This document shows, piece by piece, positions 38,575 to 61,007 of a stretch of 64,000 bases of DNA; within the stretch, counting starts at the first letter, position 1; each line of letters starts with the position of its first letter. The notes under the pieces are model-generated. The model worked only from the letters and a program-made list of their open reading frames with translations. It was not told where the DNA came from and did no database searches. Source of the stretch: Gammaproteobacteria bacterium (GTDB taxonomy: Bacteria > Pseudomonadota > Gammaproteobacteria > Pseudomonadales > Cellvibrionaceae). The translations under genes were made by a program, and so were the position numbers. The stretch covers positions 1,054,001-1,118,000 of the forward strand of contig SEBU01000001.1 in NCBI GenBank assembly GCA_004173475.1, given 5' to 3'.

Positions 38575-40368
38575 ATGATGTTTAACGTTTTGCCATTTGC
38601 TTCAGCCGATACAGTATCTACGTCACCCGTTCCGCATCAGGACACCTGCGCGGATTTAATTGTTGAATATTTAGCCAGAATGGGTATCACCACGGTCTTT
38701 GGCGTTCCTGGCGGTGCTATAGAACCGTTTTTAAATGCGCTCGCGCGCAGCGAACGCAAAGGTGGCCCGCGTTTGGTAGTCGCACGCCACGAAAGCGGCG
38801 CGGCATTTATGGCGGACGGCTATTACCGCGAGACGGGCAAAATGGGTGTTGTATGCAGCACCACCGGCCCCGGCGCGACGAATTTATTGACTGGAGTAGT
38901 GTCTGCGGCGGCAGACGAAATTCCAATGCTGGTTATCACCGCCCAAACCCCATTACCTAAATTCGGCAAGCGCGCCCTGCAAGAGTCCAGCTGTACTGCT
39001 GTTGATACTGTGGGAATATTTCGCTATGCGACTCAATTCAATACGCTTATCTCCCACCATGAACAATTGGAAACTAAATTAGTCTCGGCCATTATGGCTG
39101 CACACAGAGCACCTAATGGCCCGGCTCACATAAGTATCCCTGCCGATGTTTTGCGCGCGCCAGCGACTATCGGCCCTAATATCCACAACGATTTATTAAT
39201 TCATAACTTTTCTCTGTTCGATGAAACCGCGATTGGGCGCCTGTGTGAAAAGCTTGGAAATGTTGAAAACATAGTGGTCTACATAGGTAGCGGTGTTAAT
39301 AAAGCCAGCCAACAAATCATGGAATTTATTACGCTCACAGGTGCTAGTTTTGTAACAAGCCCTATGGGCAAAAGTTGGGTGGATGAAAAACATCCGCAAT
39401 ATCATGGCGTGTTCGGCTTCGCCGGCCATGAAAGTGCTAATGCGCTCTTGCAAGATCCAAACGTCGATCTGATTATTGCTGTGGGTACAGCACTGAGTGA
39501 GTTAGGCACGAATGGTTGGAAGGGCGATTTGCTGAACAATAAATTGATTCATATTGATTCTTCGATCGAACACTTTACTCGCTCTACCATGGCTAACTTG
39601 CACGTGTGCGGCAACATCGACACCATTTTCAACCGGTTATTAGTGAGTGTTCGTGAAGTTACCAAATGGGGCCGGCAATGGAATACTCATCGTAAAAACC
39701 ACGTGAGAAATATCAATGGCGGTTACGCCACATTGCTTGAACCGGAAAAAGGGCTTTCAAATGCAGTTCCGCTTAAACCACAACGTTTGATGTGTCAGCT
39801 GGCAAAAAAATTACCTGAAGAAACACGTATTTTCATAGATGCTGGCAACAGTTGGGCTTGGGCAACTCATTACCTTACTCGCAGCAACAGCGACGGTTTT
39901 TACCGTATAGCGATGGGCTACGGCGCAATGGCTTGGTCCATTGGCGCTGCGATTGGTTCGGCAGTTGCAAATCGCAATGCACCGACAATTTGTATTGTTG
40001 GTGACGGCTCTTATTTGATGAGCGCGCAAGAAATTACTGTCGCCGCGCAACAACATTTACCCATGGTGTTTCTCATTTTAAATGACGCAGCGATGGGCAT
40101 GGTGTTGCACGGACAACGTCTCGGCAACCAGGAATCTATAGGCTGGGAACTGAACAGCATTAATTACGCGGCCCTCGCACAAGCGATGGGTATTGATGGC
40201 ATAGTAATTGAAACGCCAACTGATTTAGACGAACTCGATTTTAATTCCCTTTTTAATAAAACAGGCCCAACGTTGGTTGACGTTCGAATCGACCGCAATG
40301 AAGTTCCACCGATGGGTGATCGCGTAAAAAGTTTAGCGATTAATGGATCTGCAACACCAGGAAGCTAG
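38575..40368 (+). CDS. TPP-dependent acetolactate-synthase-like enzyme
   Basis: A 597-residue protein. The N-terminal pyrimidine-binding domain has GVPGGAIEPFLNALAR and the activating Glu in ARHESGAAFMADGY. The middle domain includes GTALSELGTNGW. The C-terminal pyrophosphate domain has GDGSYLMSAQEITVA...NDAAMGM, the GDG-N thiamine diphosphate motif. Acetolactate synthases, sulfoacetaldehyde acetyltransferases and related decarboxylases share this layout. There is no adjacent ilvN regulatory subunit, so it is probably not the main biosynthetic enzyme. The reaction cannot be fixed from sequence alone. Confidence 0.82.
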   Translation: MMFNVLPFASADTVSTSPVPHQDTCADLIVEYLARMGITTVFGVPGGAIEPFLNALARSERKGGPRLVVARHESGAAFMADGYYRETGKMGVVCSTTGPGATNLLTGVVSAAADEIPMLVITAQTPLPKFGKRALQESSCTAVDTVGIFRYATQFNTLISHHEQLETKLVSAIMAAHRAPNGPAHISIPADVLRAPATIGPNIHNDLLIHNFSLFDETAIGRLCEKLGNVENIVVYIGSGVNKASQQIMEFITLTGASFVTSPMGKSWVDEKHPQYHGVFGFAGHESANALLQDPNVDLIIAVGTALSELGTNGWKGDLLNNKLIHIDSSIEHFTRSTMANLHVCGNIDTIFNRLLVSVREVTKWGRQWNTHRKNHVRNINGGYATLLEPEKGLSNAVPLKPQRLMCQLAKKLPEETRIFIDAGNSWAWATHYLTRSNSDGFYRIAMGYGAMAWSIGAAIGSAVANRNAPTICIVGDGSYLMSAQEITVAAQQHLPMVFLILNDAAMGMVLHGQRLGNQESIGWELNSINYAALAQAMGIDGIVIETPTDLDELDFNSLFNKTGPTLVDVRIDRNEVPPMGDRVKSLAINGSATPGS

Positions 40369-40503: not shown

Positions 40504-43020
40504 GTGTTATCTACTGCAACCGAAAAAAGTCCTGCAGCCAATACCTGCATTCTCGTTGTTAACAACGACATCTCAGCACAGCAAAAAATTAAAAATTGCT
40601 TGCTGCCGCTCGCCTATTCCCACGTAACAATTGTTGAATCAGCCACCAACGCCTTGCATTTTTTACGTGATCAACCCGTTGACCTGGTGATCCTTGATAT
40701 AGATATTCCAGATATGGATGGCTGGCGTTTATCGCGATTAATTCGCTGCGGCATACTAAATTGTCGCGCGGATCTTCCTATTGTAATAATGGCGAGTACA
40801 TGGTGTGAGCGCATTGCAGAAATCACAGCCCGTGAATACGGAATAAATTATTTAATTCCGCTTGACCATCTCGACCAGTTGCCAACGGTTGTTCAAAAAC
40901 TTGCGCAAGAGAAGAAATACCAACAACCGAAACCGCGCGTATTAGTGGTAGAAGATTCCCAAGACACATCTGATTTAATTGAGCGTGTACTCGGCGCTAA
41001 TTTTGATATGGAGGTTGCAGCAGACGGTGCAGAAGGTCTTAATGCCTGGAAAGCAAGACGTCACGATTTAGTATTGTTGGATGTAATGCTTCCGAGCCTT
41101 TCCGGGCGCGATATTTTAATTGAAATTAATCGCATCGACCCGCGCCAACCCGTGGTGATTATGACCGCGCACACCACCATAGACCAAGCTGAAGAACTAA
41201 TGCTGCTCGGAGCAGTTGATTTTTTGTCCAAACCGTTCCGGCCTGAACAGTTGCGTAAAGTATGTGATATCGCAATTCGCCGAGAAGATTATTTAGTCAG
41301 CAATGCGCAATTTGCGCAACGCGTAGAGTCGCTGCAAAAACGCGAGTATGAGTATCGCAGTCTCTACCAGAGCCATCACCAATTACTGGATGATTTGCAA
41401 TCCGTAGTAATGGAGTTGGACGAAGGATTATGTATCCGTTTTTTAAATCGCACCTGGGAAGCCTTGACGGGTTATACCATTAAGCATTCTGTTGGTCGCC
41501 CTATTGAAAATTTCATTTTTGATAGCAACGAATTTCTGGCATTTAAAACAAAATTTACCGATGCTCTGCGCGAGAAAAAGTCTTCCACCGAAATTGAACT
41601 GTGTTTAAAGGATGTCAATGGCCAAAAAATATGGACGCAGCTAAAAATTAGCCGCTCTACCAATAGTGAAAAGATATCCACCTTTACCGTTTGCCTGGAT
41701 AATATTACCGAGCGAAAAAAATCCCAGGACCAATTAAATTACCTGGCGATGCATGACTCTCTAACAGGTTTGTATAACCGCCACTATTTCGAAGTGTCGT
41801 TAGAAAAACTCGCTGATGAGGCCTCGCATAAAAATATATTGCACGGGTTAGTGTATTTAGACCTGGACCATTTTAAAGTCGTAAATGACACCTTTGGTCA
41901 CCAGAAGGGTGACGAGGTACTTAGGGAAATGTCTTCATTACTCGGCCAACGAATTCGCGAGCCAGATATATTATGCAGGCTGGGCGGTGATGAATTTGCG
42001 GTTCTGCTGCAAGACGTCGACGCACAAACCCTGAATAATTTTGCCCAAGAAATTCAAAAAATTATTGGCGATTTTAGTTTTCAACTGCAAGAACATCGTA
42101 TTAATTTGGGTTGTAGCATCGGCATCACCTTAATTGACGGTAGCGTTCGTAGTCCTGAAGACCATTTTAAGCGAGCAGATATCGCGCTTTACGTTGCCAA
42201 AGGACGCGGCCGCAATTTAATCCATCTCTACAATTCACAAGATGATGAAACTGATGAATTGCGAATGCGAATAAACATTTCGCAGAAAATCCGCAAGGCT
42301 ATTTCAGAAGACAGGATGATTCTTTATTTTCAACCTATCTACGATATTCGAAAAGATAAAATTTCTTATTATGAATCATTAGTTCGTCTGAGAGAGACAG
42401 ACGGAACCATTGTTGGCCCGGCGGAATTTATTCCAGCACTTGAGGCCGCGGGCGAAATGCATCTGTTGGATCGCTGGATTATAAAATTAGCCACGAGAAT
42501 GTTGAAAGATCATCCAAAATTAAACCAAATTGCTATCAATCTTTCAGCACAAGCATTTAAAGATGAAAGTCTAGTTCCCACCATTTTGGAAGCATTGAAA
42601 GCAACAGGAATAAATCCAAACCGCATTACGTTTGAGTTAACGGAAAGTGCAAGTTTATTTAATTTACATATTACGCAACGTGTAATTGCAGAACTCCATA
42701 ACTTGGGCTGTAGTTTTTCGGTAGATGATTTTGGTTCAGGATTCAGCAGCTTTTCTTATTTGAAGGAATTGCCTGCGGATTATATTAAACTCGATGGTTC
42801 ATTTATAAAGAATTTGCACAAAGATGCCATTGATCGGGCATTAGTTAAATCCATGATTCAGGTGATTCAAGCGCTCGGAAAAAAAGCAGTTGCAGAATTT
42901 GTAGAGAACCAGGAAATCCTGGACATTTTAAAAAACATGGGCATTGATTTTGTTCAAGGCTATCATATTGGCCGCCCGATTCCCGTTGAACAATTAACCT
43001 TGCGAAAATTTGCGCAATAA
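40504..43020 (+). CDS. Cyclic-di-GMP enzyme: REC-REC-PAS-GGDEF-EAL
   Basis: An 838-residue cytoplasmic protein with a GTG start; GGAG precedes it. REC1 (about 15-135) keeps Asp65 but has NN in place of the acid pair (VVNND) and lacks the conserved Lys, so it is probably not phosphorylated normally. REC2 (about 145-262) is complete (VVEDS, Asp193, FLSKPF). PAS covers about 298-405. The GGDEF site 494-498 is intact, with an I-site RxxD (485-488). The EAL domain (about 600-835) reads ESLVR at 624 and keeps DDFGSG. It can probably make c-di-GMP; hydrolysis is likely but depends on the EAL variant. Confidence 0.93.
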   Translation: MLSTATEKSPAANTCILVVNNDISAQQKIKNCLLPLAYSHVTIVESATNALHFLRDQPVDLVILDIDIPDMDGWRLSRLIRCGILNCRADLPIVIMASTWCERIAEITAREYGINYLIPLDHLDQLPTVVQKLAQEKKYQQPKPRVLVVEDSQDTSDLIERVLGANFDMEVAADGAEGLNAWKARRHDLVLLDVMLPSLSGRDILIEINRIDPRQPVVIMTAHTTIDQAEELMLLGAVDFLSKPFRPEQLRKVCDIAIRREDYLVSNAQFAQRVESLQKREYEYRSLYQSHHQLLDDLQSVVMELDEGLCIRFLNRTWEALTGYTIKHSVGRPIENFIFDSNEFLAFKTKFTDALREKKSSTEIELCLKDVNGQKIWTQLKISRSTNSEKISTFTVCLDNITERKKSQDQLNYLAMHDSLTGLYNRHYFEVSLEKLADEASHKNILHGLVYLDLDHFKVVNDTFGHQKGDEVLREMSSLLGQRIREPDILCRLGGDEFAVLLQDVDAQTLNNFAQEIQKIIGDFSFQLQEHRINLGCSIGITLIDGSVRSPEDHFKRADIALYVAKGRGRNLIHLYNSQDDETDELRMRINISQKIRKAISEDRMILYFQPIYDIRKDKISYYESLVRLRETDGTIVGPAEFIPALEAAGEMHLLDRWIIKLATRMLKDHPKLNQIAINLSAQAFKDESLVPTILEALKATGINPNRITFELTESASLFNLHITQRVIAELHNLGCSFSVDDFGSGFSSFSYLKELPADYIKLDGSFIKNLHKDAIDRALVKSMIQVIQALGKKAVAEFVENQEILDILKNMGIDFVQGYHIGRPIPVEQLTLRKFAQ

Positions 43021-43057: not shown

Positions 43058-43903
43058 TTAATCAGGCACTGCCCTTCTTGGCACCCCTTGGTAATCTACA
43101 TCATCGCAGCGTAATGGTAAAAAACTGTCAGCTGGTTGCTTATAAGTATCCAGGTAACACGCTGTAACTCCGCTAGCGACGAGCATGGCAAACATTTGAT
43201 ACACCTCTTGCGAGCTGAATCCCTGATCCGACAAAAAAGCAGACATGTAACCGTTAATATTCATGCCTTCATCAAATTGATCCAATAATACGCGCTCTAT
43301 CTCATAGGCTAATTGCAAGTGTGGGCCTTCATCAAAACCAAGATTACGTGCGACAGCTTCCATGGTCTCAAGACGTTCATCACCTTTTGCGATTGGGCGC
43401 TTGTAACCGACGATATAGGGCTTACCTTTATTGGTAGCGACAACTTCATTCACTACGTCAAGCGGAGACATGCCGCTTTGGTGTTTCGCGTAAGCCTGCT
43501 GAATAAATTCCACGCCTTCTACCAATGGATAAACACCGTAAGTTCTTGAATCGGTGGCCATACAACCAATTGCCGTAGCTGTTACGACCGACGTTCGCGC
43601 AGTGCCGGCGAGCGCACCAATTTGATTGCACCATATACGCGGATCAGGCCAACTTAAACATCCATAAATGGCTTCAACCCAATCTGCAAAAGGTCGCTCA
43701 ACCATTTTTCCCGTGGCATTTAAAATCAATGTTTGGAAATACGTTTTTTTTCCAACCAATTCGTCGAGCATTGAATAGCCGTGACTAAATACACCATTGC
43801 CCGGAAACCAACCACCAGTATTACTAATAATTTTTCCACGTCGTTGATCGAGCACTTCGATGATTTTTATATCGCTGTAGGTTTTTTTATCGTTCGATAA
43901 CAT
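43058..43903 (-). CDS. Citrate-synthase-fold protein, second of a pair, catalytic residues apparently lost
   Basis: A 281-residue protein. The C-terminal helices (INGYMSAFLSDQGFSSQEVY, QMFAMLVASGVTACYLDTYK, PLRCDDVDYQG) follow the citrate synthase small-domain pattern. Aligned by eye, the GFGHR-type catalytic His site reads VGYKRPIAKGDER, and the Asp of the V-D-F-Y-S-G site is Asn (MNINGYMSA). It is therefore likely a non-citrate-forming relative or a structural partner. Its start overlaps the end of the first citrate-synthase-like gene by 17 bp, so both are probably made together as a complex. Confidence 0.68.
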   Translation of the reverse strand: MLSNDKKTYSDIKIIEVLDQRRGKIISNTGGWFPGNGVFSHGYSMLDELVGKKTYFQTLILNATGKMVERPFADWVEAIYGCLSWPDPRIWCNQIGALAGTARTSVVTATAIGCMATDSRTYGVYPLVEGVEFIQQAYAKHQSGMSPLDVVNEVVATNKGKPYIVGYKRPIAKGDERLETMEAVARNLGFDEGPHLQLAYEIERVLLDQFDEGMNINGYMSAFLSDQGFSSQEVYQMFAMLVASGVTACYLDTYKQPADSFLPLRCDDVDYQGVPRRAVPD

Positions 43904-44735
43904 AATTTTCGTCGCTCACAAAAGGCATTGCGGTAATGGGTTTGTTTGCAAGCTCCAAACCTTGGGCAACTAAACCCGGCGCACCTAATAACTGAAACAA
44001 ACATCCGCCTGCGCGTGGTTGGAAACCTAAATCTGCAAATACAGCTGCGGCCACACCGGTCATTAACCAACCTTGTCCGTGCTCGTCTAGTTGCTCGTTC
44101 AATTTGCACCCCCACTGCAACGCAGCCCCTGCACCATCCAGCTTTGCAAGACGACTCGCGAGTTCTACCGCCATTAATTCTACGCCGCCGTTGCGCGCAC
44201 CGAATCCAGCAAAATAAACTTCTCCTGGTTCGTTTATTTTTCCAGCCGATTTTTCTAACGTGTTTTTATCACGCTGCTCCAAATAATCGCGAATAAGAAT
44301 TTCAGGTTGCGTTTTTTGATGTTTACGAAAGAAACGCATAGATGTTTCCAGCTCACCGCCACCCAGGTAGGTTCCACCTAATACAGCTGATGCAATGGGC
44401 AAAATATGCAACGGATCAGTTTTTCCAACGCCAACATTCATCGCTGCACGCACAGCGGGATGCCTTGGGCCAGGATTGATTAACGCAATCATTAGCTGTT
44501 GTAATAAATTACTTTCAGCGTGAGAGGGCAACTCGCCTCGGAACAATAAATAAAATACATCGACAAACGAACGCTTTTCCATAAGCTCAAACAGATCGTA
44601 ACCGTGGCATTGAGCTGATGCGGCAATGTAGGGATTGTCGGTGCTCGGCTCTTCATGCCATATGCGCGTGGCAGTACGCGCTACAAATGGCTCGTTGCGG
44701 CTACGCACCGGTTCGTGTTTGTGCTCTTGCGTCAT
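43887..44735 (-). CDS. Citrate-synthase-fold protein, first of a pair (citryl-CoA lyase-like), catalytic residues apparently lost
   Basis: A 282-residue protein. TRIWHEEP, then GYDLFELMEKRSFVDVFYLL and FRGELPS are the N-terminal citrate synthase pattern. MTGVAAAVFADLGFQPRAGG followed by FQLLGAPGLVAQGLE is the C-terminal one. At about 280 residues it is as short as citryl-CoA-lyase-type relatives. The first active-site His (normally PLHGGAN-like) reads GGTYLGGGELE, and the GFGHR site reads GFGARN; both His appear lost. It lies 66 bp after a TonB receptor gene, with a hairpin between, and overlaps the second citrate-synthase-like gene. Confidence 0.7.
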   Translation of the reverse strand: MTQEHKHEPVRSRNEPFVARTATRIWHEEPSTDNPYIAASAQCHGYDLFELMEKRSFVDVFYLLFRGELPSHAESNLLQQLMIALINPGPRHPAVRAAMNVGVGKTDPLHILPIASAVLGGTYLGGGELETSMRFFRKHQKTQPEILIRDYLEQRDKNTLEKSAGKINEPGEVYFAGFGARNGGVELMAVELASRLAKLDGAGAALQWGCKLNEQLDEHGQGWLMTGVAAAVFADLGFQPRAGGCLFQLLGAPGLVAQGLELANKPITAMPFVSDENYVIER

Positions 44736-44747
44736 GATTTATTCCGA

Positions 44748-44795
44748 AGCTAATAAAAAATAAACAGCTCACCTCGTGCTCAATTGAAGTGAGCT
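44748..44795 (-). terminator. Terminator or attenuator between the TonB receptor and the citrate-synthase-like pair
   Basis: AGCTCAC (44766-44772) and GTGAGCT (44789-44795) form a 7-bp stem with a long loop. On the minus strand a T-rich tract follows (GTTTATTTTTTATT). It lies right after the receptor stop codon and before the ATG of the first citrate-synthase-like gene, so it may lower rather than abolish expression of the pair. Confidence 0.55.
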
Positions 44796-44801
44796 AACTA
44801 T

Positions 44802-46994
44802 TTATTTAAATGCGTAGGTTAACCCCAACCAAATGTTGCGAGATTCAAGCGGATAATCGTCCGGTATCGTAATACTGCTGGGCTCTCTGGCCGTGGTATT
44901 GGCGGCATTGCGCACGGCAAAAGATAAATCCAATTCGGGTAAAATATTTTTGCGGATCAAGGTGAAATTTAACAAGGTATAGTTAGCAACATCGGGGCGT
45001 GGATCATCGACTGCACGCTCCCGGTCACCTATCCAATGAAGCTGGCTATTGAGAGACCATTGTGCGGCGGGCATCCAATTTACATTCACTTTAAATTGTT
45101 TTCCGGGCGCATCAGGAATAGCGGCTTCTGTTTTTCCATCAACGGCCGACTGCGTAGAATAGCTTGCGTTTAAATGTAACTGTGCCGATGGTTTCCAAAT
45201 AACTTCAAACTCAACACCTTTGCCGTCCTGGTCGCGAATATTATTTGCATATTTAGAGGCATCGGGTGTATCAACATTATCAACAAACTCAATCATATCT
45301 GTTGCGCGATATTTAAATAGCGTCAAATTTGTTTGCAGCGTATCTGCGAATCTATAATTGAAAGAAAGCTCCAGTGTATTCATCTGCTCTGGTTTTAATT
45401 CAGTATTACCTATAGAGACGGGATTATTTTTGTAATAAAGCTCTGCAAACGATGGCGCGCGAAACGCGCTGCCGTATAGTAATTTTGTCGTTAGATCCTC
45501 ACTGGCTGTCCACACCAGCGCTACACGCGGATTGGTGGTGCTACCAAAGTCGGAATAATCGTCGTAGCGCACACCTGCCGTCAGATCAAGGCCTTGCAGA
45601 ATCTTCCACTCGTCTTGCAGAGAAACATAACGTATTTCACGGGAGTTATCGTCAAGAAACGCGTCTGGGCTATTACTAATATTCGTTAAAGCGCCATCCA
45701 TAGATGCTGGCAAAGGTGTTATATCCAGAACACCCGGACCAAAATTTTTACTTTCGGTACCCCTTAAGTTTTGATACCGAGCGCCCGCAGCGAACCGGAT
45801 GCGTTGGGAATCGAAACCGGAATAAAGCGAGACAAATTCAAATTGTCCATCTTTCGATACACCACCCGGATTACCTTTTAAACCTTCGGGAAAAGCAACT
45901 ACACCTGCGGGGGCAACGAAATCGAGATTGCCATCCCTACCTATGGGCACGACAGTGCCAGCGGGTAGCAAGGTAAATTTGGCCTCCTCCTCGTAACGCA
46001 TGTAACTCAATCTAACGCTGTTATTCCAGTGTTCGGGGGCGCCTAGTTGATAGCTAAGGTCACCCATAATTAAATCACTGTCGTCGCTACCGGATGGATC
46101 CAAAGCTTGTGCGGCACCGACACCGACACCTGCATCCCTGGAAACCCAATTCCATAAATTTATCTGTAAATTTTCACCGGTTAATGACAAATGCGAATCG
46201 AAAATTTGATAGCGAGTCGACAAGGCACCAGGTGCAAGCGAAGCATTTGTGCCAAGTTTTTCGTCCAGCGCAGACTGTAAATCCGAATTAACTTTTCGAT
46301 CATCATCGCCATCGCTTTCAAGATAGGCGAGATCAAACGCAATGCCCATGCCCTGCCATTCGGTGGCAGTTTGCACCCACATGTCATGCGTATTGAACGA
46401 GCCTGCCCTCGCTCCTATCTGCGTTGCTTTTGTCGCGTTGGCGTCTTTGGTTATTACATTGACGACGCCCGCATAAGCATCCGCACCATAAATGGCGGAC
46501 CCTGGCCCGCGAATAACTTCTACTCGCTCAATGCTAGCAACGGGCAAACGAAACAATGTCGGTCGCCCACCTTGCAAACTGTATTGAACGGGAACGCCGT
46601 TCATTAGCAAGAGGACCTGCGGGTTGAAGCCGCTGTGTACGCCTCTAATCGATTCCACAGAATCGAGGCGACTAAGACTGGAAAGGGAAATATGGAGACC
46701 TGGAACAGTTTCTAAAACATCATCAAGCGTACGCGCACCCATGGATTCAATTTCGGCCGCATAGATTACCGACGCCGTTGCGGGTGCTTTATCGAGCGGA
46801 GTGCTGTTACCTGTAGCAATGGAGATTTGAACCTGACCTAACTCGGAAAGCGAGAGGTTATATACGTCCATAGAAGTTGCTGCAGATTTACTAGCATTAT
46901 TTTTTTTGTCATCCGTTTTATCAGCGCCATAACTTGTGGCACTCATTATACCGAGCAATGCAGACAAAAAAGTTTTGGTAAAACAGAATTTCAT
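44802..46994 (-). CDS. TonB-dependent outer-membrane receptor
   Basis: A 730-residue protein with a signal peptide (MKFCFTKTFLSALLGIMSATSYGA). The plug domain has SVIYAAEIESMGARTLDDVLETVPG and the standard VEVIRGPGSAIYGADAYAGVVNVITK. The barrel has the usual FRAPSFAELYY and ends RNIWLGLTYAFK with a terminal aromatic region. It imports a large or scarce ligand across the outer membrane using TonB energy; the ligand is unknown. The segment before the plug (MDVYNLSLSELGQVQIS) is typical of receptors found beside YfiR-type sensor kinases, and such a kinase is the next gene upstream. Confidence 0.9.
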   Translation of the reverse strand: MKFCFTKTFLSALLGIMSATSYGADKTDDKKNNASKSAATSMDVYNLSLSELGQVQISIATGNSTPLDKAPATASVIYAAEIESMGARTLDDVLETVPGLHISLSSLSRLDSVESIRGVHSGFNPQVLLLMNGVPVQYSLQGGRPTLFRLPVASIERVEVIRGPGSAIYGADAYAGVVNVITKDANATKATQIGARAGSFNTHDMWVQTATEWQGMGIAFDLAYLESDGDDDRKVNSDLQSALDEKLGTNASLAPGALSTRYQIFDSHLSLTGENLQINLWNWVSRDAGVGVGAAQALDPSGSDDSDLIMGDLSYQLGAPEHWNNSVRLSYMRYEEEAKFTLLPAGTVVPIGRDGNLDFVAPAGVVAFPEGLKGNPGGVSKDGQFEFVSLYSGFDSQRIRFAAGARYQNLRGTESKNFGPGVLDITPLPASMDGALTNISNSPDAFLDDNSREIRYVSLQDEWKILQGLDLTAGVRYDDYSDFGSTTNPRVALVWTASEDLTTKLLYGSAFRAPSFAELYYKNNPVSIGNTELKPEQMNTLELSFNYRFADTLQTNLTLFKYRATDMIEFVDNVDTPDASKYANNIRDQDGKGVEFEVIWKPSAQLHLNASYSTQSAVDGKTEAAIPDAPGKQFKVNVNWMPAAQWSLNSQLHWIGDRERAVDDPRPDVANYTLLNFTLIRKNILPELDLSFAVRNAANTTAREPSSITIPDDYPLESRNIWLGLTYAFK

Positions 46995-47371: not shown

Positions 47372-49321
47372 TTATTGGATACGTTTTCTATCCTGATCGC
47401 TCACCACGCTTGACTCAACATTTGGCAAATCAGGTTTTACAGGCAGCGGGATGATAACGGTGAAAGTTGCACCTTCACCCAATTCACTTTTCACCGCGAT
47501 AGAACCGCCCATCATTTCACATAGTTGCCGTGTGATTGACAGCCCTAAACCGGTGCCCTGATATTTTCGTGTAGTGCCATTTTCAGCCTGCCGGAAGGGA
47601 TCAAAAATGTGCTCTTGTTGTTCGCTAGTAATTCCAATTCCGGTATCGGTCACGCTAATAAAAATACGATTAGGTTCACTGTGTGCTTTCAAGGTGACGG
47701 TGCCGTTAGGTGAAAATTTACTGGCATTGCCTAATAAATTAATCATGACATGCAATAACTTTTCTGGATCAGCGACAGGTAAGACAATTCCGTCATTAAC
47801 ATCCAGTTGTAATTCAATTGAATTTTTTTCCAGCAAGGGTTTGATCGTGCCAACCGCATCGTCAACTAAGCTGGATAGTTTCACCTCAGCTAAATCTAAT
47901 CGCATACGACCAGATTCAATTTTTGCCAAGTCCAATACACCATTAATCAGTTTTAATAAGCGCTCGGAATTATTAATGACGCGAGTGAGATCTTTGACAT
48001 GAATTTCGTCATCGTTAAGCTTCAAATCTTCAATAACCACTTCTGTGTAGCCTATAATGGCTTGTAGCGGAGTGCGCAACTCATGACTCATGAGCGACAG
48101 AAAATCCCCCTTCGCTTGACTGGCATCCTCCGCTTTGCGCTTGGCAATTACGAGGCGATCTTTTGCGAATTGCAAATCCTGGCTGTGTGCCGCCAAACGC
48201 TGGTTATCGCGACGCTTGGTAACGTACGCAACAAAAATGGTGATGGCGAGCAAAATGCCCAATATCACTAGTGCCCAGGAATACATAAGGGCTTTTTTCT
48301 GCGCGCCTACAATAATATCTAAATTGGTAATTGCTTCACGTTGCTTTTTTAAATCAATTTCCTGCGTTTTAATTGTGTTATCCAGCTCAGTAACACGTTT
48401 TTCACGCTCGTCAATTTTCCCAGTAATGCTACTTAATTCCTGTTGCAGCGTGGCAAGCCCCTTCGCACGCATCTCAACTTCATTTTGCAATGCGATGCGT
48501 TCACTTTTACTTTTTTCAATTTGTTCATTTTGTGTAGCAATTAATTCATCGCTTTTTTGTATATTCTGGTTTAGCGTCTGCATTTGCTGTTCAAGCCGAG
48601 TATTGAGCGCCTCTTGACTTTGGATGCGAGCACTTAGATCAGCCAATGCTTTTTCACGGCTTTGCAATTGCTTTTGAATATTCAGGAGTGACGATTGGCC
48701 TTCGCGAAATAATTTTGCAACATCAATTTCAGTGCCACCATTTAAAATTAACTCGGGAAGCGGCTTTAACCCCTGATTAATCAAATTGGATTTATTTACT
48801 TCAAAGCGTAGGCGATCATTGGGGGCCGGAATTAAATTAATCATCACCAGCTGCTTGTTGGCAAAATCGAAGGTGACAACCAGTACCGGCTTACCTTCTA
48901 CTGCAGTGTAAATATCGGAAATTAATTTATTGTCAGCTACCTCAACATAAATTAATTGAAATTTGTCGAGTGCTTGCAGGGAGTTGATGCGCTTGACTGT
49001 AATGGGATGATTTTTCAAAGAACCATTTGCAGATAGTTGCACCAGCTCTTTATAGACTGCGGAATCCTCCGAGTGAAATACCGCAACATCAAAACTTGTT
49101 AGGGCCGCTTCATTTGGCCATTCAATATTTTTAGCGAAGTTGTATAGGTAGGATGCCGTCAATCGTTGTTTATTGATGGTTTGCGCAAATGTACTGTCAG
49201 CTAACAAAAATAAAACGACCACCCAATAAATTGGCCTACAGGTCAAGCGGACAAAAAACGATGCCCCGCTCACAGGAGAGATGTTATTAACGAAAGAATG
49301 TAGCGATTTATAAATCAACAT
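47372..49321 (-). CDS. Sensor histidine kinase with N-terminal YfiR-like (DUF4154) domain
   Basis: A 649-residue protein. After a hydrophobic N-terminus, a periplasmic YfiR-like domain (about 48-190) starts RLTASYLYNFAKNIEWPNEA and includes NDRLRFEVNKSNLINQGLKP. A long coiled coil (about 205-345) leads to one membrane helix (SWALVILGILLAITIFVAYV), HisKA (SHELRTPL, His near 412), and HATPase with N-box (NLLGNASKFSPNG), G1 (DTGIGI) and G2 (GTGLGLSI). No receiver is attached and no response regulator is adjacent. YfiR-like domains control periplasmic redox or cell-envelope signals in the YfiBNR c-di-GMP system; the ligand here is unknown. Confidence 0.92.
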   Translation of the reverse strand: MLIYKSLHSFVNNISPVSGASFFVRLTCRPIYWVVVLFLLADSTFAQTINKQRLTASYLYNFAKNIEWPNEAALTSFDVAVFHSEDSAVYKELVQLSANGSLKNHPITVKRINSLQALDKFQLIYVEVADNKLISDIYTAVEGKPVLVVTFDFANKQLVMINLIPAPNDRLRFEVNKSNLINQGLKPLPELILNGGTEIDVAKLFREGQSSLLNIQKQLQSREKALADLSARIQSQEALNTRLEQQMQTLNQNIQKSDELIATQNEQIEKSKSERIALQNEVEMRAKGLATLQQELSSITGKIDEREKRVTELDNTIKTQEIDLKKQREAITNLDIIVGAQKKALMYSWALVILGILLAITIFVAYVTKRRDNQRLAAHSQDLQFAKDRLVIAKRKAEDASQAKGDFLSLMSHELRTPLQAIIGYTEVVIEDLKLNDDEIHVKDLTRVINNSERLLKLINGVLDLAKIESGRMRLDLAEVKLSSLVDDAVGTIKPLLEKNSIELQLDVNDGIVLPVADPEKLLHVMINLLGNASKFSPNGTVTLKAHSEPNRIFISVTDTGIGITSEQQEHIFDPFRQAENGTTRKYQGTGLGLSITRQLCEMMGGSIAVKSELGEGATFTVIIPLPVKPDLPNVESSVVSDQDRKRIQ

Positions 49322-53880: not shown

Positions 53881-55278
53881 TCACGAATTATGTAAACCTA
53901 ACCAGTTTTTTGCGTAAGCCCAGCGTGAAAAAATAATTTTTTCGATCAGCAGAATCACAATTAACGAAATGCCAAGGACAGGTAGAACAACGGCAGCAAC
54001 CATAATAATAACAACGAAACCCTTACCAACTTCTGCGTCCGGCATGGCGGGTGGTGCTCCGAGAACTCCATCTGGAGCGCGTTTGCGCCACATAATAAAA
54101 CCGCTAACTGAAATCAGTACTAAACCTAAAGCGGTGATTAAACCTAGCAACTGATTAAACCATCCAAATAGCTGGCCTTCGTGTGCAGAAACACCAATTC
54201 CTACTGCTCGATCTATAAGGTGACGTTGCGAAAAATTTTGAATATCGATGAGTTCGCCAGTTTGCGCACTGAAATAAGCATCTGCTCTACGCGGCCGATT
54301 TTGCGTGTTTGATTTAGCTGTCCATTGGGTAGTTCTTGCAGAGGGCGGCGCGACCCAAACAGGGTGCTCCAATTTTAGTTGTTGCGCATGTGCAACTATT
54401 AAATCCAGATTTACCCTGACTTGGGCTGGCCCGTGCATGCCCGCGCCATGATCATGGTGCGTTGCTGAACTAGAATCAATTGTCGGAGTTGCGGTGACGG
54501 GCGAACCCATGTCATGGTGAGCATGTTCCTCTTCGAGGGCAGGCAAATTACGTTGACCAGCCACCGACCAATCCTGCTGTTGCATAGCGGCGCTTGTAAA
54601 ACCACGCACCTCCTTGAGCGCACTGCCCCACACTAACGCCCAAGGCAATCCGCTTATTAATAAAAATAAAACAAAAAATGAAATCCATATCCCGGCAACT
54701 GAATGCAAGTCTCGCCAAAATAAACGTCCCTTTAACGAAACTCGTGGATATAAAATACCTGCAACACCTTTCGCTGAGCGCGGCCACCACAAATAAATTC
54801 CCGTCATAACCAATACAATTGCCCAGCAAGCCGCCAGTTCGACCAACACCGAACCAAACTTACCTAGCAATAATTCGCCATGCAGATCATGAACGATTCT
54901 AAGGAAACGCTTGTCCTCTTCTTCGACTGCCAGAATTGCCAAGGTTTGTGGATGAACATATACACGAATATTTTTTCCGGACTTATTTAAAATTATATTT
55001 ACTGCATCGGTTTTTTCGCGCGGCAATTCGTAGGCGATAAAACTCGCGTTTGGAACAGCCGTAAACGCAGCAGCCACTTGTTGTTCAGGTGTGCCGGCTT
55101 GTCCGTCTATTGTTAAATTTCGGTAGGGTGCATCGTGAAGCGCATCTATTTGCGGTTTAAATAAATAGATGGCTCCCGTGATCGACAAAATAATCACAAA
55201 AGGTATTGCGAAAATTCCGGCGTAGAAATGCCAGCGCCACAATGTTCGATAAACTTGTTTAGCGTTCAGTTTTTCCAT
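53881..55278 (-). CDS. PepSY-associated membrane protein with His-rich loop (PiuB-like)
   Basis: A 465-residue protein with four main membrane helices. TLWRWHFYAGIFAIPFVIILSITGAIYL at the N-terminus, VHDLHGELLLGKFG and the GVSAHEGQLFGWFNQLLGL segment are typical of PepSY-associated TM proteins, which are thought to reduce or release metals after TonB-dependent uptake. A periplasmic insert at about 245-282 holds EEEHAHHDMGS and THHDHGAGMHG, many His and Met likely to bind copper or iron. Its start overlaps the end of the upstream TonB receptor gene by 13 bp. Confidence 0.87.
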   Translation of the reverse strand: MEKLNAKQVYRTLWRWHFYAGIFAIPFVIILSITGAIYLFKPQIDALHDAPYRNLTIDGQAGTPEQQVAAAFTAVPNASFIAYELPREKTDAVNIILNKSGKNIRVYVHPQTLAILAVEEEDKRFLRIVHDLHGELLLGKFGSVLVELAACWAIVLVMTGIYLWWPRSAKGVAGILYPRVSLKGRLFWRDLHSVAGIWISFFVLFLLISGLPWALVWGSALKEVRGFTSAAMQQQDWSVAGQRNLPALEEEHAHHDMGSPVTATPTIDSSSATHHDHGAGMHGPAQVRVNLDLIVAHAQQLKLEHPVWVAPPSARTTQWTAKSNTQNRPRRADAYFSAQTGELIDIQNFSQRHLIDRAVGIGVSAHEGQLFGWFNQLLGLITALGLVLISVSGFIMWRKRAPDGVLGAPPAMPDAEVGKGFVVIIMVAAVVLPVLGISLIVILLIEKIIFSRWAYAKNWLGLHNS

Positions 55279-57602
55279 TTAGCCTCGAGCAAATAGGTTC
55301 GTTGAGAAAAGGGATGATAGGCCCAGGCTTTGTCGTTGTTAATATTATCTACACCAAAACTTAATTCCGTTTGCTGGTTAACTTGCCAGGCAATTCGTGC
55401 ATCCGCAATTAATTGTTCTGAGGCATAACCGAAAGTATCACCGCGCTGTGTTCCCTCTAAATTAGTGTTAGGGCGCGATGCATAACGTACTCCGCCCGAC
55501 AAACGCCAATCTTGCGCAAATTCATAACGTGCCTGAGAATTAATACGCCAGTAAGGAATGCGTGGGAATTGATTGCCTTCAGATACGGGTAACAATCTAT
55601 TCTTTAAAATTTTATCGTCGATATACGCCATGTTGAAATCAACACTCAGCCCTCTTATCCACGTATCAGAAAGCTCCAAAATAAGTTCGGCCCCGGTTTG
55701 GCGAACACGATCAACATTCACAAAGGATGTTGTAGTCGCGCTCGTTACAGCCCGTGTAATCGGATCAATCTTGTAATGTTCAAACGAAAAAATGTAATCA
55801 CTAACATCTTGATAAAAGATGCTGGCTGTTATGCGCGCATTTTCAAATTGATGACGTAGAATAAAATTTGCGTCTTTTGAACTTTCCGGTTTCAAATTTG
55901 GATCAAAGCTGTATGGATCGAACACGCCGGTTGAATCAAACTTTCCTTGAAATAGTTCCCCCACTGTAGGAAACCGTGTTGCGGTGGCCAAGCTCAATTG
56001 CGCCTGCCAGTTTTCAGCAAAAGCCCACTGGGAAGACAATGAAAAATTAGTTTTGGTTTCTTCCCTGTCATCATATTCTTGCGGAGCTTTTGCAGTTATC
56101 TGATGTATGGCGCCATCAAAGGCTCGCCATTTTTCGGCTCTAACGCCTGCAGTCACACTAAAATTATCGTTTAAATGTAATTCATCTTCTGCAAAGACGC
56201 CGTGCAAACTTGACTTGCCACCTGTTTCAATTGAGTAACGTTGATTAGAAGCATAGCGCCATTGAGTCGTGTTATAGGTAATGCTATCGGTCTCATAAAG
56301 ATTGGCTGTTAAACCCAAGGTTATTTCGTGTTTACCGAATTCTTGCGAGGCTTTGGTATCAAAAGTCCACCACCCAGACGGATCAACATCTGTAAAAGTG
56401 CCTGCGCCATTATTAACGCCATTGTCATAACCGTTAGAAGTAAAAGTTTTCGCCTTGGCCAACCAGAAGTGCGATAAATTCAAACTCAAATCCCAATTTG
56501 CGACCTTTCCCTTTAAGCCCAAACCTGCAAGTATTTCTGTTCGCTCCGTAAGCGATAAATTAAGCGCGTTAGTGTCCCAATATTTTCCATTAACTTTTAC
56601 TGTGCCTCTGTAAACAGGTCGGTCGTTTGTATCGCGCAAATAAGTGTTGGGATTCGTTGCATCCGACTCGGTTGTCCAATAAACCAGTAAACCATGCATG
56701 CTCCAATTATCGAAAGTCAAATCCCCTCGCAAACGTAATTGATCCTGCGTGTTATCGTCTGTTGATGCGGCGGCAAATATGGGTGCCGGAGTAGTGTTGG
56801 GGATTGTTGGAACTAAATATTTATCCTCTACGGCACCTTTTACCTCATCACCATTTATTTTTGTTGACGGGGTCAACTGGCTCCAACTCATTGGTTGCCC
56901 TTCATTTTCAAAATGACGGTAACTGGCACGCACAGACACAGGTCCATCGTCCTGTTTCATTGCAAAACCGCCTTCGAAGGTGTAGCCCTTGTAGGTGTCT
57001 TCGGTACTGTATTGTTGGTAAGGTTGCACGAAGCCTTGCAAGGTGACGAAGGCTTCATTTTTTTCAGGAGGACGAGTAGAGATAGACACTATTCCGCCCA
57101 TAGAATTACCTGGGTAACGCGCGGAATAAGGACCGTAAACTATATCGAATTGTTGAACTTCACCTGGCCCCACAATTCCCCACTTGGGTGGAAAACCAAA
57201 TGAATTACCCAAATAATTTGAAATCACAAAGCCATCCACCAAAACCAGGGAACGGGCAGATTGTGATGAGTGAGTTCCGCGAAAGCCAGGCACGCCATTC
57301 GCATCGCCGATGTAACGCTTACGAACAAAAAAATTCGGCGCGTATTTCATTAAATCTTCAAGATTAATAGCATTCGTCGATGCAAATTGTTCTTCTCCTA
57401 GTGATACGGCCAAACCACGCGGTTCAATTGTAATTGGCGCTTCTTTTTGCCCAACGACTATCATCTCTTCTACAGAAACGTTGGCCGCTAATTGCAAAGC
57501 TGAATCTTCGGCATAAACGTTAAATGCCGTATTACATGAAATAACGAAGATGGGAATTCGCGTGAGATAACCTAAGCGCACCATAATGAACCTTAAATTC
57601 AA
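55266..57602 (-). CDS. TonB-dependent outer-membrane receptor, probable metal or metallophore uptake
   Basis: A 778-residue protein. A signal peptide is followed by a TonB-box-like EEMIVVGQKEAP, a plug (NLEDLMKYAPNFFVRKRYIG, then IVYGPYSARYPGNSMGGIVSIST) and a barrel ending SQRTYLLEAKWKN. The plug variant DIVYGPYSARYPGNSMGG differs from the usual VEVIRGP form and resembles receptors paired with PepSY proteins. It is cotranscribed with the downstream PepSY gene (13-bp overlap). The ligand is not known; the His-rich partner suggests copper or an iron chelate. A palindromic operator candidate lies 42 bp upstream. Confidence 0.9.
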   Translation of the reverse strand: MNLRFIMVRLGYLTRIPIFVISCNTAFNVYAEDSALQLAANVSVEEMIVVGQKEAPITIEPRGLAVSLGEEQFASTNAINLEDLMKYAPNFFVRKRYIGDANGVPGFRGTHSSQSARSLVLVDGFVISNYLGNSFGFPPKWGIVGPGEVQQFDIVYGPYSARYPGNSMGGIVSISTRPPEKNEAFVTLQGFVQPYQQYSTEDTYKGYTFEGGFAMKQDDGPVSVRASYRHFENEGQPMSWSQLTPSTKINGDEVKGAVEDKYLVPTIPNTTPAPIFAAASTDDNTQDQLRLRGDLTFDNWSMHGLLVYWTTESDATNPNTYLRDTNDRPVYRGTVKVNGKYWDTNALNLSLTERTEILAGLGLKGKVANWDLSLNLSHFWLAKAKTFTSNGYDNGVNNGAGTFTDVDPSGWWTFDTKASQEFGKHEITLGLTANLYETDSITYNTTQWRYASNQRYSIETGGKSSLHGVFAEDELHLNDNFSVTAGVRAEKWRAFDGAIHQITAKAPQEYDDREETKTNFSLSSQWAFAENWQAQLSLATATRFPTVGELFQGKFDSTGVFDPYSFDPNLKPESSKDANFILRHQFENARITASIFYQDVSDYIFSFEHYKIDPITRAVTSATTTSFVNVDRVRQTGAELILELSDTWIRGLSVDFNMAYIDDKILKNRLLPVSEGNQFPRIPYWRINSQARYEFAQDWRLSGGVRYASRPNTNLEGTQRGDTFGYASEQLIADARIAWQVNQQTELSFGVDNINNDKAWAYHPFSQRTYLLEAKWKN

Positions 57603-57833: not shown

Positions 57834-60800
57834 ATGATGGAATTTATGAAGCCCGAGATGCACGCTGAACCTGAAAAGGTTTCTGAACTCACCGATTTGT
57901 TCAACCGCGCTAAAAAACTTTTGCCGCATTCTGAGCAAAGTCTGGTTAACGCCGCTGAAGCCGAGCAATTAAAACGCGACATAAAAATTTGGCAACTTGC
58001 TCTGCAATTAATGCGTAACGAATTACTTGTGCGCGAACTTGAGTTACGCGCTACAAATCAATTGGTAGAAACTTTTCAGGCAATTACGCATGTTGGGATT
58101 GTCGAGATGGATGCAACGACGCGTGAATTGCGCTGGAGCATGGAGACCTATCGTATTCACGATACTTCACCAGAAGAGTTTGACCCCACCCTGCAGGACA
58201 ATCTCGGTTACTACACTTTAGAGTCTCGTCCGATCATGGAGGCTGCAGTTAAGGCAGCTCTGGAAGAGGGAAAAGTTTTTGACCTTGAGGTTGAGAAATA
58301 TACGCTCAAGGGGAGAAAAATACGTCTGCGTACAACCTGCGTTCCGGTATACAAAGATGGCAAGCTGGTTAAATTCAGCGGCATCTACCAAGACATTACC
58401 GAGCAAAAGCGAAAGGAAAGCTTGTTGCTGGAGAAGGACCACATCCTTTCCGAATCCCAACGTATCGCCCACATTGGCAGTTGGAGCTGGGATCTAAAAG
58501 ACAAAACCGTTATTTGGTCTGAAGAAACATGCCGTATTTATGGCGTAGATGTTCTCGCCTTCGAGCCCACCAAACAATCCTTCGTTGAGCTGATTCACCC
58601 CGACGATCGAGCGTTAATGCGCCAATGGCGCGAGCAATGTTTAATTGGTGAGGCGCCCGGCGAGCTTGAGTTTCGTATAGTTCGGCCCGACGGGACTGTG
58701 AGGTTCATTAACGGCCGTAGCAATCTCGAACGAGACAAATTCGGTAACCCGCAGAAAATGGTGGGTACAGTTCAAGATATTACCGAACGCAAACAAGCCG
58801 AACTTCATCAACAACATCAAAGCCGCATCCTGGGTCTAATAGCGGAGAAAGCCCCGCTTAAAAAAGTGCTCGATGCTATGGCACGAGACATCGAACACCT
58901 TAAACCGCAATCCTTCTGCTCGATACTCCTGCTTGATGAATATGGACAGCACCTATGGCACGGCGCCGCCCCCAGTCTGCCGGATTTTTACGTCCGCGCT
59001 ATTGATGGTGCAGCTATTGGCTTGGCCGCTGGTTCTTGCGGCACGGCGGCGTTTACTGCCCAGCGCGCCGTGGTGGAGGATATAAGTACTCATCCCTGGT
59101 GGAACGATTACCGCGACCTGGCCAAAAGAGCCGGATTAGGATCTTGCTGGTCACAACCGATTATGTCTTCTGAAGGACGCGTTCTCGGCACCTTTGCGAT
59201 TTACCATGCCAAGCCCGCCAGCCCCACTGACGAAGACATAAGCCTGATAGAGACCGAGTCTAATTTAGCGGCGCTTGCCATTGAGAAAGACAGGGACCGG
59301 GCACGATTGGAGCTGGCAGCCAGCGTATTTACTCACGCCCGCGAAGGCATACTGATTACTGACGCAAACGCCAATATAGTCGACGTCAATGACACCTTTA
59401 CCGCAATTACTGGCTACAGTCGCAGCGAGGTCTTAGGGCAAAACCCAAGCATTTTGCAATCTGGTCGCCATACGACGGCATTTTTCAAGCAATTGTGGAG
59501 CGACCTTACCACTAAAGGTTTTTGGTCTGGCGAAATGTGGAACAGGCGTAAAAATGGTGAAATTTTTGCCGAGATGCAAACTATCAGTACCGTGCGGGAC
59601 CGCTCAGGTAAGCCGACAAATTACGTAGGCTTGTTTACCGACATTACCCAGTTAAAAGAACATCAACAACAACTTGAATACAGCGCACATTACGACGCCC
59701 TCACCCGCCTGCCTAACCGCGTGCTATTGGCTGACAGGTTAAAACAGGGCTTGGCGCGTTGTCACCGCATGAGTACGTCGCTTGCTGTTCTTTATATAGA
59801 TCTCGACGGTTTTAAAAGCGTGAATGATAACCACGGGCACGAAATGGGCGACCAGCTTCTGATTACCATAGCCCAGCGTTGGAATGAGGTTTTGCGTGAG
59901 GGTGATACGCTTGCGCGCATCGGTGGCGATGAGTTTATTGTGATTCTGGTAGACCTTGAGAATACAAACGATCACGAACTTATTTTGCAGCGTCTCTTGC
60001 AAGCAGCTACCGAGCCGGTGTCGGTGAAGGATCAGCTGCTACGAGTATCCGCGAGCATCGGCGTCACTATTTATCCGCAAGACGGTCCAGATGCCGATCA
60101 ACTCATGCGACATGCCGATCAGGCTATGTATCTCGCCAAGCAAGCTGGTAAAAATTGCTTCCACGTGTTTGATGTTGCTAAAGATGTGGCAGTTAAAATT
60201 CATCGTGAAAGTATTGAACATATTCGTCAGGGACTGGATAGAAACGAGTTTGTCCTTTACTACCAACCCAAAGTAAATATGCGCACGGGCGAGGTAATTG
60301 GGCTGGAAGCTCTGATTCGCTGGCAACACCCGGAGCGCGGCCTACTGCCACCTTCAACTTTTTTGCCCATCATTGAGGAGCACGTACTCAGCATAGAAGT
60401 TGGTGATTGGGTAATTAACCGCGCACTTAAACAAATGGCGGAATGGCGCGATCTCGGCCTGGATTTATCAATCAGCGTCAACGTTGGCGCCTTGCAATTA
60501 CAGCAGGGCGATTTCGTAAATCGTCTACGCGCGCAACTCAGCCGCCATTCAAACGTGCCTCCAGGGAAACTTGAGTTGGAAATTCTTGAGACCAGTGCCC
60601 TCAATGACATCAACGACATAGCTGAACTTATGCGGCAGTGTCGTCAGCTGGGAGTAAATTTCGCGGTGGATGATTTCGGCACCGGCTACTCATCACTCAC
60701 TTATTTAAAAAGGTTACCTGCGGAACTCTTAAAAATCGACCAAAGTTTTGTGCGCGATATGCTGGACGACCCAGATGATCTCGCCATCGTAAAAGGCGTC

Positions 60801-61007
60801 ATAGGTTTGGCGACCGCGTTCCATCGCAATGTTATTGCGGAAGGCGTAGAAACCATTGCGCACGGAAAATTGTTGCTTGAACACGGTTGCCATCTCGCCC
60901 AAGGTTACGGCATCGCCCGACCCATGCCAGCCGAACAAATTCCCGCATGGATTGCCGGGTGGCGACCAGATAAAGCCTGGAGTGATCCGGATTTAAAAAA
61001 ATTATAA
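57834..61007 (+). CDS. Cyclic-di-GMP enzyme: PAS-PAS-GAF-PAS-GGDEF-EAL
   Basis: A 1057-residue cytoplasmic sensor enzyme. PAS domains lie at about 80-195, 205-322 and 495-615, each ending in the PAC type DITE/DITQ motif. GAF lies at about 327-490 (GSCGTAAFTAQRAVVEDI, LGSCWSQPI). The GGDEF site at 697-701 is intact, with an I-site REGD just upstream. The EAL motif at 825 (GLEALIRWQHPERG) and DDFGTGYSSL are intact. It can probably make and degrade c-di-GMP under control of several cytoplasmic signals. It has no membrane helix. It diverges from the TonB receptor operon. Confidence 0.95.
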   Translation: MMEFMKPEMHAEPEKVSELTDLFNRAKKLLPHSEQSLVNAAEAEQLKRDIKIWQLALQLMRNELLVRELELRATNQLVETFQAITHVGIVEMDATTRELRWSMETYRIHDTSPEEFDPTLQDNLGYYTLESRPIMEAAVKAALEEGKVFDLEVEKYTLKGRKIRLRTTCVPVYKDGKLVKFSGIYQDITEQKRKESLLLEKDHILSESQRIAHIGSWSWDLKDKTVIWSEETCRIYGVDVLAFEPTKQSFVELIHPDDRALMRQWREQCLIGEAPGELEFRIVRPDGTVRFINGRSNLERDKFGNPQKMVGTVQDITERKQAELHQQHQSRILGLIAEKAPLKKVLDAMARDIEHLKPQSFCSILLLDEYGQHLWHGAAPSLPDFYVRAIDGAAIGLAAGSCGTAAFTAQRAVVEDISTHPWWNDYRDLAKRAGLGSCWSQPIMSSEGRVLGTFAIYHAKPASPTDEDISLIETESNLAALAIEKDRDRARLELAASVFTHAREGILITDANANIVDVNDTFTAITGYSRSEVLGQNPSILQSGRHTTAFFKQLWSDLTTKGFWSGEMWNRRKNGEIFAEMQTISTVRDRSGKPTNYVGLFTDITQLKEHQQQLEYSAHYDALTRLPNRVLLADRLKQGLARCHRMSTSLAVLYIDLDGFKSVNDNHGHEMGDQLLITIAQRWNEVLREGDTLARIGGDEFIVILVDLENTNDHELILQRLLQAATEPVSVKDQLLRVSASIGVTIYPQDGPDADQLMRHADQAMYLAKQAGKNCFHVFDVAKDVAVKIHRESIEHIRQGLDRNEFVLYYQPKVNMRTGEVIGLEALIRWQHPERGLLPPSTFLPIIEEHVLSIEVGDWVINRALKQMAEWRDLGLDLSISVNVGALQLQQGDFVNRLRAQLSRHSNVPPGKLELEILETSALNDINDIAELMRQCRQLGVNFAVDDFGTGYSSLTYLKRLPAELLKIDQSFVRDMLDDPDDLAIVKGVIGLATAFHRNVIAEGVETIAHGKLLLEHGCHLAQGYGIARPMPAEQIPAWIAGWRPDKAWSDPDLKKL

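Follow-up and report, generated by a model that had tools for sequence, protein, structure and literature searches.

Two degenerate citrate-synthase-like proteins, a thiamine diphosphate enzyme and their usual receptor and sensors suggest an undescribed route for producing and sensing a small molecule

The gene cassette

The window analysed here is a stretch of 64,000 nucleotides from a gammaproteobacterium of the Cellvibrionaceae (assembly GCA_004173475.1, contig SEBU01000001.1, positions 1,054,001 to 1,118,000). It contains a pair of short genes, here named CSA and CSB, whose products resemble citrate synthase and citryl-coenzyme A (CoA) lyase. The initial annotation of this DNA described two such genes with a 17-bp overlap. 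Both open reading frames (ORFs) exist and share positions 43887-43903, and the order on the minus strand is TonB receptor, CSA, CSB. The genes for a thiamine diphosphate (ThDP) enzyme, a GGDEF-EAL protein and a YfiR-kinase belong to the same conserved set, and had been overlooked. The features are listed in Table 1; CSA, CSB and the ThDP enzyme are referred to as the enzyme trio.

Table 1. Features of the cassette, in positions of the window.
Feature	Position	Strand	Description
CSA, citryl-CoA-lyase-fold subunit A	43887..44735	-	282 aa; without His320/Asp375 equivalents; NPGPR and GF motifs conserved
CSB, citryl-CoA-lyase-fold subunit B	43058..43903	-	281 aa; without catalytic His/His/Asp; PDPR, YG and GYxRPIxxxDER conserved; Arg329 position kept
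ThDP-dependent, acetolactate-synthase-like enzyme	38575..40368	+	597 aa; cofactor motifs (Glu73, GDG-N) intact; three TPP domains
TonB-dependent receptor	44802..46994	-	730 aa; Pfam plug and barrel
YfiR (DUF4154) sensor domain fused to histidine kinase	47372..49321	-	649 aa; conserved set
Cyclic di-GMP (c-di-GMP) output protein: two receiver domains, PAS, GGDEF, EAL	40504..43020	+	838 aa; conserved set
Hairpin resembling a terminator or attenuator, between the receptor gene and CSA	44758..44803	-	conserved in few relatives

A hairpin had also been noted behind the receptor gene. Its fold is real (-19.5 kcal/mol, z -2.9, equalled by 3 of 200 shuffles), but it is not conserved in most relatives: among eight close ones an equal fold strength is found only in L004, and with a different sequence (loci and genomes are given by our own L and G numbers).

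Fold and catalytic residues of CSA and CSB

Profiles made from 21 CSA and 20 CSB sequences both have as their first match in the PDB the citryl-CoA lyase 6hxp. The same entry comes top when the AF2 models of CSA and CSB are searched with Foldseek, these models being of low confidence (pLDDT 61 and 67). Profile matches and low-confidence models therefore agree, and both proteins have the short form of the citrate-synthase fold. The similarity to characterised families is distant. Against the citryl-CoA lyase models CSA scores 71 bits (cut-off 212) and CSB 46 (cut-off 245), far below the curated thresholds; CSA lies slightly under the cut-off of Pfam Citrate_synt, and CSB has no Pfam match. The two are 21% identical to each other over 242 positions, and a profile-profile comparison of them gives a probability of 98.5. 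CSA forms one group (SH-aLRT 94) and CSB another (98) in a quick tree of 67 rows, where six citrate synthases are set apart from both (100); two lyase rows attach next to CSA (85), a placement that is unsure. A search with NF004866 returned mostly longer frames of citrate-synthase type.

The alignment used for the catalytic columns contained 30 CSA and 29 CSB sequences together with six citrate synthases, 6hxp and a lyase-like protein. Pig numbering is used, with the residue roles usual for citrate synthase or adopted from the initial annotation. The position of His320 is a gap in all 59 CSA and CSB sequences, and none of them has Asp at the position of Asp375. In the His274 column, where the alignment is uncertain by one residue, His is present in 0/29 CSB and 9/30 CSA, and the CSA of the window has Tyr-Leu. 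The original observation that the catalytic His and Asp are missing thus extends to the family, and sequence alignment of its 59 members gives no intact active site. It is worth adding that a lyase-like protein (L085:1480-2250) keeps the His320 motif and has Asn at the Asp375 position; by eye, it is flanked on both sides by SDR-like and FAD-enzyme-like frames (SDR, short-chain dehydrogenase/reductase).

Other positions are strongly conserved. Citryl-CoA lyase has a G[YF] loop that contacts CoA, and this loop is retained in 59/59 sequences. In 20 CSB sequences R89, W91, N93, Y122, G123, R169, D175, E176, R177 and C249 are invariant, R177 being located at the Arg329 position, which is Arg in 29/29 CSB. 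P88, G89, R91, G177, F178 and W208 are invariant in 21 CSA sequences. Neither set includes the most divergent clades, in which several of the invariant residues change (for example L083), and L014 and L039 were omitted from alignments.

Ten comparisons of the pair genes gave non-synonymous divergences (dN) of 0.19-0.41, with synonymous divergences (dS) of 2.3-3.8 in four and saturated in six, values on which we reject decaying pseudogenes. The conserved replacement residues, together with low dN at high or saturated dS, argue for a repurposed site or a binding site and not for decay. An ordinary citryl-CoA lyase or citrate synthase is ruled out by the sub-cut-off scores and the absent catalytic residues. 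We class CSA and CSB as proteins with the fold of citryl-CoA lyase but distinct from that enzyme and from citrate synthase, the residues that define these enzymes having been looked for and found absent.

Conservation of the gene set

CSA is present in 22 of 185 genomes of the class, and CSB adjoins it in all 22, counting a broken CSB in L039 and a fragment in L047. The L047 fragment (within L047:9490-11456) has 72 aa and lies beside an IS66 transposase gene. Within the family CSB is found in 36 of 120 genomes. The CSB profile matches in 10 of 398 genomes of the phylum and in 4 of 247 of the phylum of Malonomonas, so that the system is sparse there, and a tblastn search of plasmids with the L051 CSB as reference gave no match.

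In 12 loci from named genomes, nine have the whole set (sensor and kinase, TonB receptor, CSA, CSB, ThDP enzyme and receiver-GGDEF-EAL protein) within the stretch. L007 and L014 are truncated by contig ends, and L084, from the same genome, completes L014. The sensor in L012 and L013 is a solute-binding protein (SBP) adjoining the kinase. Cultured environmental strains with the cassette include Cellvibrio sp. OA-2007 (L011), Malonomonas rubra DSM 5091 (L012) and Motiliproteus sp. MSK22-1 (L013). Gene order differs, for example between L013 and the other loci, while the gene set persists.

A larger set of 44 loci, in which L014 (8.3 kb, at a contig end) is represented by L084, contains CSA in 44, CSB in 43 at threshold, the ThDP enzyme in 39 and the TonB receptor in 33. 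Histidine kinases (HK) are found in 36, receiver domains in 23, GGDEF and EAL in 22 each, SBP in 21, YfiR in 10 and SDR in 7, so that either SBP or YfiR is present in 31. Among the seeds, sequences longer than 340 aa labelled CSB were dropped and the fused ThDP sequence of L044 was cut to 600 residues. Twenty control stretches, taken from 15 of the same genomes, contain HK in two, GGDEF in two and a receiver in one; none has any other gene of the set (ThDP, TonB, SBP, YfiR and EAL included), on which we reject a chance neighbourhood. The combination of TonB with SBP or YfiR and with HK or EAL is present in 31/44 loci and 0/20 controls.

A further 20 loci, referred to below as the later loci, come from 18 more genomes of the family, chosen because they have CSB; the neighbourhoods of eight of the 36 CSB-positive genomes (G829, G867, G877, G899, G910, G921, G935 and G939) were left out. 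CSA is found in all 20 and adjoins CSB in all 20, and the ThDP enzyme is found in 19, TonB in 18 (one weak), HK in 12, GGDEF and EAL in 11 each, SBP in 6, and YfiR and SDR in 5 each; the combination above is present in 10. In L168 and L174, the two without a TonB match, a homologue of the L186 variant receptor is present, and likewise in L179, whose TonB match is weak. The pair thus stays together and usually has a TonB receptor gene close by, the co-occurrence that the initial annotation proposed to look for. It is of interest that the ThDP enzyme is nevertheless the most constant partner, and the unit is therefore the enzyme trio. One locus (L177:4255-11496) has two tandem ThDP-CSA-CSB sets.

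The ThDP enzyme

The cofactor motifs are present in almost all homologues of the ThDP enzyme (Glu73 in 38/38, GDG in 38/38, Asn503 in 37/38). The score is 316 bits on TIGR00118 (cut-off 538) and 291 on the ScyA-related model (cut-off 1000), and HGQ is found where acetolactate synthases are expected to carry QWQ. The genome of the window has another ThDP homologue, 28% identical to the cassette enzyme. A housekeeping acetolactate synthase is ruled out by the score on TIGR00118 and by this separate homologue.

Six genomes have no ThDP gene at the locus. Five of them have a relative elsewhere, with identities of 76-77% in two, 43-44% in two and 33% in one, the last being perhaps a different enzyme. 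In G575, one of the two at 76-77%, the relative is on a contig that also bears a piece of CSB. In the genome of L010 the ThDP gene and the EAL gene have relocated jointly to another site (L189). A search of 19 family genomes that lack CSB found a close ThDP relative in three (54-72%) and a receptor relative in two (58% and 35%).

Fusions and replacement by a KAS III homologue

Two fusions link these genes. In L044 (6776-9436) the ThDP enzyme and CSA form one frame of 886 aa, followed by CSB; the ThDP domains were identified with Pfam and the CSA part with BLAST. In L009 (8795-10387) CSB and an SDR form one frame of 530 aa, and a homologous SDR is free-standing after CSB in L004, L005, L006 and L011.

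A few cassettes have a homologue of ketoacyl synthase III (KAS III) adjoining the ThDP gene (L185:7630-8580, L186:10664-11686 and L192:9357-10331). The homologue is over the Pfam cut-offs and under those of the FabH models, and has the Cys, His and Asn motifs, which presumably have their usual roles. In L185 and L186, from two of the three CSB-less genomes with a close ThDP relative, it follows the ThDP gene. It is found in three of 120 family genomes, all outside the 36 that have CSB, and L192 has the same five-gene order. These cassettes were compared with the CSA and CSB cassettes L168, L174 and L179. The ThDP enzymes are 70-77% identical, the GGDEF-EAL proteins 52-60%, the receptors 43-49% (for L185 and L186) and the putative periplasmic proteins 35-49%; that of L186 has a sub-threshold match to SBP_bac_3. 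No CSA or CSB was found in L185, L186 or L192, the absence in L185-L187 being read from reading frames alone because the remnant search mixed ThDP and pair queries.

KAS-type enzymes acylate small molecules, as in the excerpted accounts of xenocyloin (PMC4425429, PMC4578411). The initial annotation suggested that the pair binds acyl-CoA or a tricarboxylate. A KAS III in the place of CSA and CSB makes the link to acyl-CoA likelier, but nothing was found that points to a tricarboxylate. The simplest reading of these gene arrangements is that CSA and CSB would perform or enable an acyl-thioester step on the product of the ThDP enzyme.

The sensing genes

The type of sensor varies, with a YfiR-kinase in Cellvibrio and an SBP (PF04392) with a kinase elsewhere. 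The identity of the sensor thus varies while its role is constant. The YfiR-kinase of the window has 649 aa, compared with 766-802 aa in L003-L011, so a domain may have been lost. In L069 (9892-15701) a Ser/Thr kinase-AAA-GAF-histidine kinase of 1727 aa and a LuxR-type response regulator lie beside the trio, with an FkbH_N-type gene nearby, and similar ORFs are present in L067 and L070. Chemotaxis genes are found near the trio in two loci: CheW and a methyl-accepting chemotaxis protein (MCP) at L051:885-3340, and an MCP at L167:9119-10762. The window has, at 53881-57602 and 57834-61007, a second TonB-receptor-like ORF (by BLAST) adjoining a PepSY-like ORF (by eye), and a further GGDEF-EAL-like ORF.

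A genome of the same genus without CSB has a YfiR-kinase (72% identical in the kinase part), a receptor (60%) and an EAL protein (77% in the EAL part) together at L184:7006-13751. No match to the trio was found within the 19 kb of this locus, and the only ThDP homologue listed for the genome is 28% identical. This is as expected of a receiver without a sender, but a nutrient sensor would look alike.

Proposed function of the cassette

On the basis of these observations, we hypothesise that CSA, CSB and the ThDP enzyme function as a synthase of a small molecule, which is sensed by the cassette's own receptor and c-di-GMP output. CSA and CSB would form a heteromeric assembly of citryl-CoA-lyase fold that has dropped the His/His/Asp chemistry. 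The ThDP enzyme would convert a 2-oxo acid to an activated acyl unit or acyloin, and CSA-CSB would handle the acyl-thioester partner by condensation or acyl transfer, a step that KAS III would carry out in the sister cassettes. In some species the SDR may reduce the product. The product would then leave the cell, to be detected through the TonB receptor, the periplasmic sensor (YfiR or SBP) and the kinase, and this signal would set c-di-GMP or transcription. Precedents for the parts are available. In the excerpted text of PMC10115795 the citrate-synthase-homology module of ATP citrate lyase is argued to load CoA and not to catalyse, and that of PMC11315295, on ScrABC, shows a signalling unit composed of a synthase, a periplasmic protein and a GGDEF-EAL enzyme. 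The open-licence literature searched contained no account of the present cassette, in line with the initial annotation, which knew of no described system with this layout.

The hypothesis starts from what was observed here: the relation to the lyase fold, the loss of catalytic residues, the intact ThDP motifs, the linkage, the fused genes, the swap with KAS III and the receiver-only genome of L184; the physical complex, the chemistry, substrates and product, and the export and signalling are what we infer. The trio is its firm part, the receptor comes next, and signalling is the least secure.

Several observations weigh against it. Six of the later loci (L167, L170, L173, L176, L178 and L182) have the trio and a receptor, and no kinase, EAL protein or periplasmic sensor by the seeds used. 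Within 18 kb, L047 and L049 show neither a receptor gene nor a sensor gene. Of the 44 loci, 11 give no receptor match, several of these being truncated by contig ends. G128 has the pair and no ThDP relative that could be found in its genome; G847 is an exception in the other direction, with a ThDP relative but lacking both the pair and this KAS III. A small, diffusible acyloin would be an uncommon ligand for a TonB receptor. No recurrent exporter was seen in the gene clusters scanned; one ABC-ATPase cluster occurs in six loci, and in its L072 member Pfam identifies two ATPase domains but no membrane domain. Finally, the loci share ancestry, and the counts for the 44 are descriptive only, because the loci are related and some seeds were derived from them. 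The hypothesis as a whole is tentative, and we put its chance of being correct at a little short of even.

A more specific version appears doubtful to us. The cassette would here define a new class of cell-to-cell signal, made by a ThDP enzyme with thioester condensation or acyl transfer on a heteromeric citrate-synthase fold without His/Asp, interchangeable with KAS III. The cassette's own TonB receptor would recapture the product, a kinase coupled to YfiR or SBP would translate it into c-di-GMP, and receiver-only strains would eavesdrop.

Alternative explanations

The genes might instead form a catabolic or nutrient-sensing cassette, in which the receptor and sensor detect an outside compound that the ThDP enzyme and CSA-CSB degrade, in the cleavage direction of citryl-CoA lyase. 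That enzyme is indeed the nearest solved relative, there are chemotaxis genes near some loci (L051, L167), and the receiver-only set in L184 fits as well. However, the catalytic residues of the lyase are gone, KAS III in the same slot points to synthesis, and no recurrent inner-membrane importer was seen in the clusters scanned. We consider this explanation unlikely.

TonB receptors typically serve chelates, and the receptor is more constant with the trio than the kinases are (18 and 12 of the later loci). The trio could on this basis make a chelator, such as a metallophore, that the receptor recaptures, with the kinases accessory. Such a role in scavenging seems rather unlikely, as L067, L069 and L070 have the trio and a histidine kinase and no receptor match, and no inner-membrane uptake genes were seen in the cassette. 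The window contains no match to a Fur box (a 19-mer, with up to 3 mismatches), on which we reject Fur-regulated uptake.

CSA-CSB could also regulate the ThDP enzyme, or sense CoA for it, without itself being catalytic, much as the small subunit serves acetolactate synthase; in our view this is quite unlikely. The swap with KAS III, normally a catalyst, and the fusion of CSB to an SDR in L009 argue against this, while the ThDP-CSA fusion in L044 and the CoA-contacting G[YF] loop, retained throughout, would favour it. The module of ATP citrate lyase is read as allosteric in the excerpted PMC10115795, which is also in its favour.

According to the initial annotation, the two proteins could be pseudoenzymes for an acyl-CoA or tricarboxylate connected with the receptor ligand. 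This reading agrees with the linkage of pair and receptor and is nonetheless very unlikely, since the ThDP enzyme is more constant than the receptor (39 and 33 of 44 loci) and the receptor-kinase-EAL set occurs without the pair in L184. The data do not support the view that the pair mainly serves that ligand.

Comparison with known systems

CSA and CSB are similar to citryl-CoA lyase (PRK06224; 6hxp, Hydrogenobacter thermophilus) and to the citrate-synthase-homology module of ATP citrate lyase in fold, subunit length and G[YF] loop, and CSB also in its Arg329 position. They differ in the loss of the His320 and Asp375 equivalents, in being a pair of ancient paralogues found together, and in having a ThDP enzyme as partner. 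The cassette enzyme resembles acetolactate synthase and the ScyA-related ThDP enzymes in its three TPP domains and intact cofactor motifs, but falls under the cut-offs of both models, is paired with CSA-CSB, and has HGQ in place of the QWQ of acetolactate synthases.

In the excerpted description of ScrABC from Vibrio parahaemolyticus (PMC11315295) the logic is similar, a signal-making enzyme, a periplasmic binding protein and a GGDEF-EAL protein being in one gene set. ScrA is an aminotransferase there, the excerpt describes no TonB receptor, and the cassette enzymes belong to other families. Both a YfiR-kinase sensor and a GGDEF-EAL output are present in the window, and no homologue of the ScrA aminotransferase is found among the six window proteins scanned. 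By analogy, the cassette would work like ScrABC, and is not homologous to it.

XclA is the ThDP enzyme of the xenocyloin pathway, and its product is acylated there by a KAS-type enzyme, as proposed for the KAS III variants here. XclB and XclC are described as acylating ketosynthases in the excerpts of PMC4425429 and PMC4578411. The window differs in having CSA and CSB in place of the ketosynthase, and in its receptor and sensor genes.

Significance

If the proposal is correct, the citrate-synthase fold would gain a function outside citrate reactions, and there would be an explanation for a group of genes whose present matches to models of citryl-CoA lyase and acetolactate synthase are only weak. 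The TonB receptor, the YfiR or solute-binding sensors and c-di-GMP would be tied to a self-made ligand. Thanks to the KAS III swap and the receiver-only genome, the proposal can be tested in environmental bacteria available in culture.

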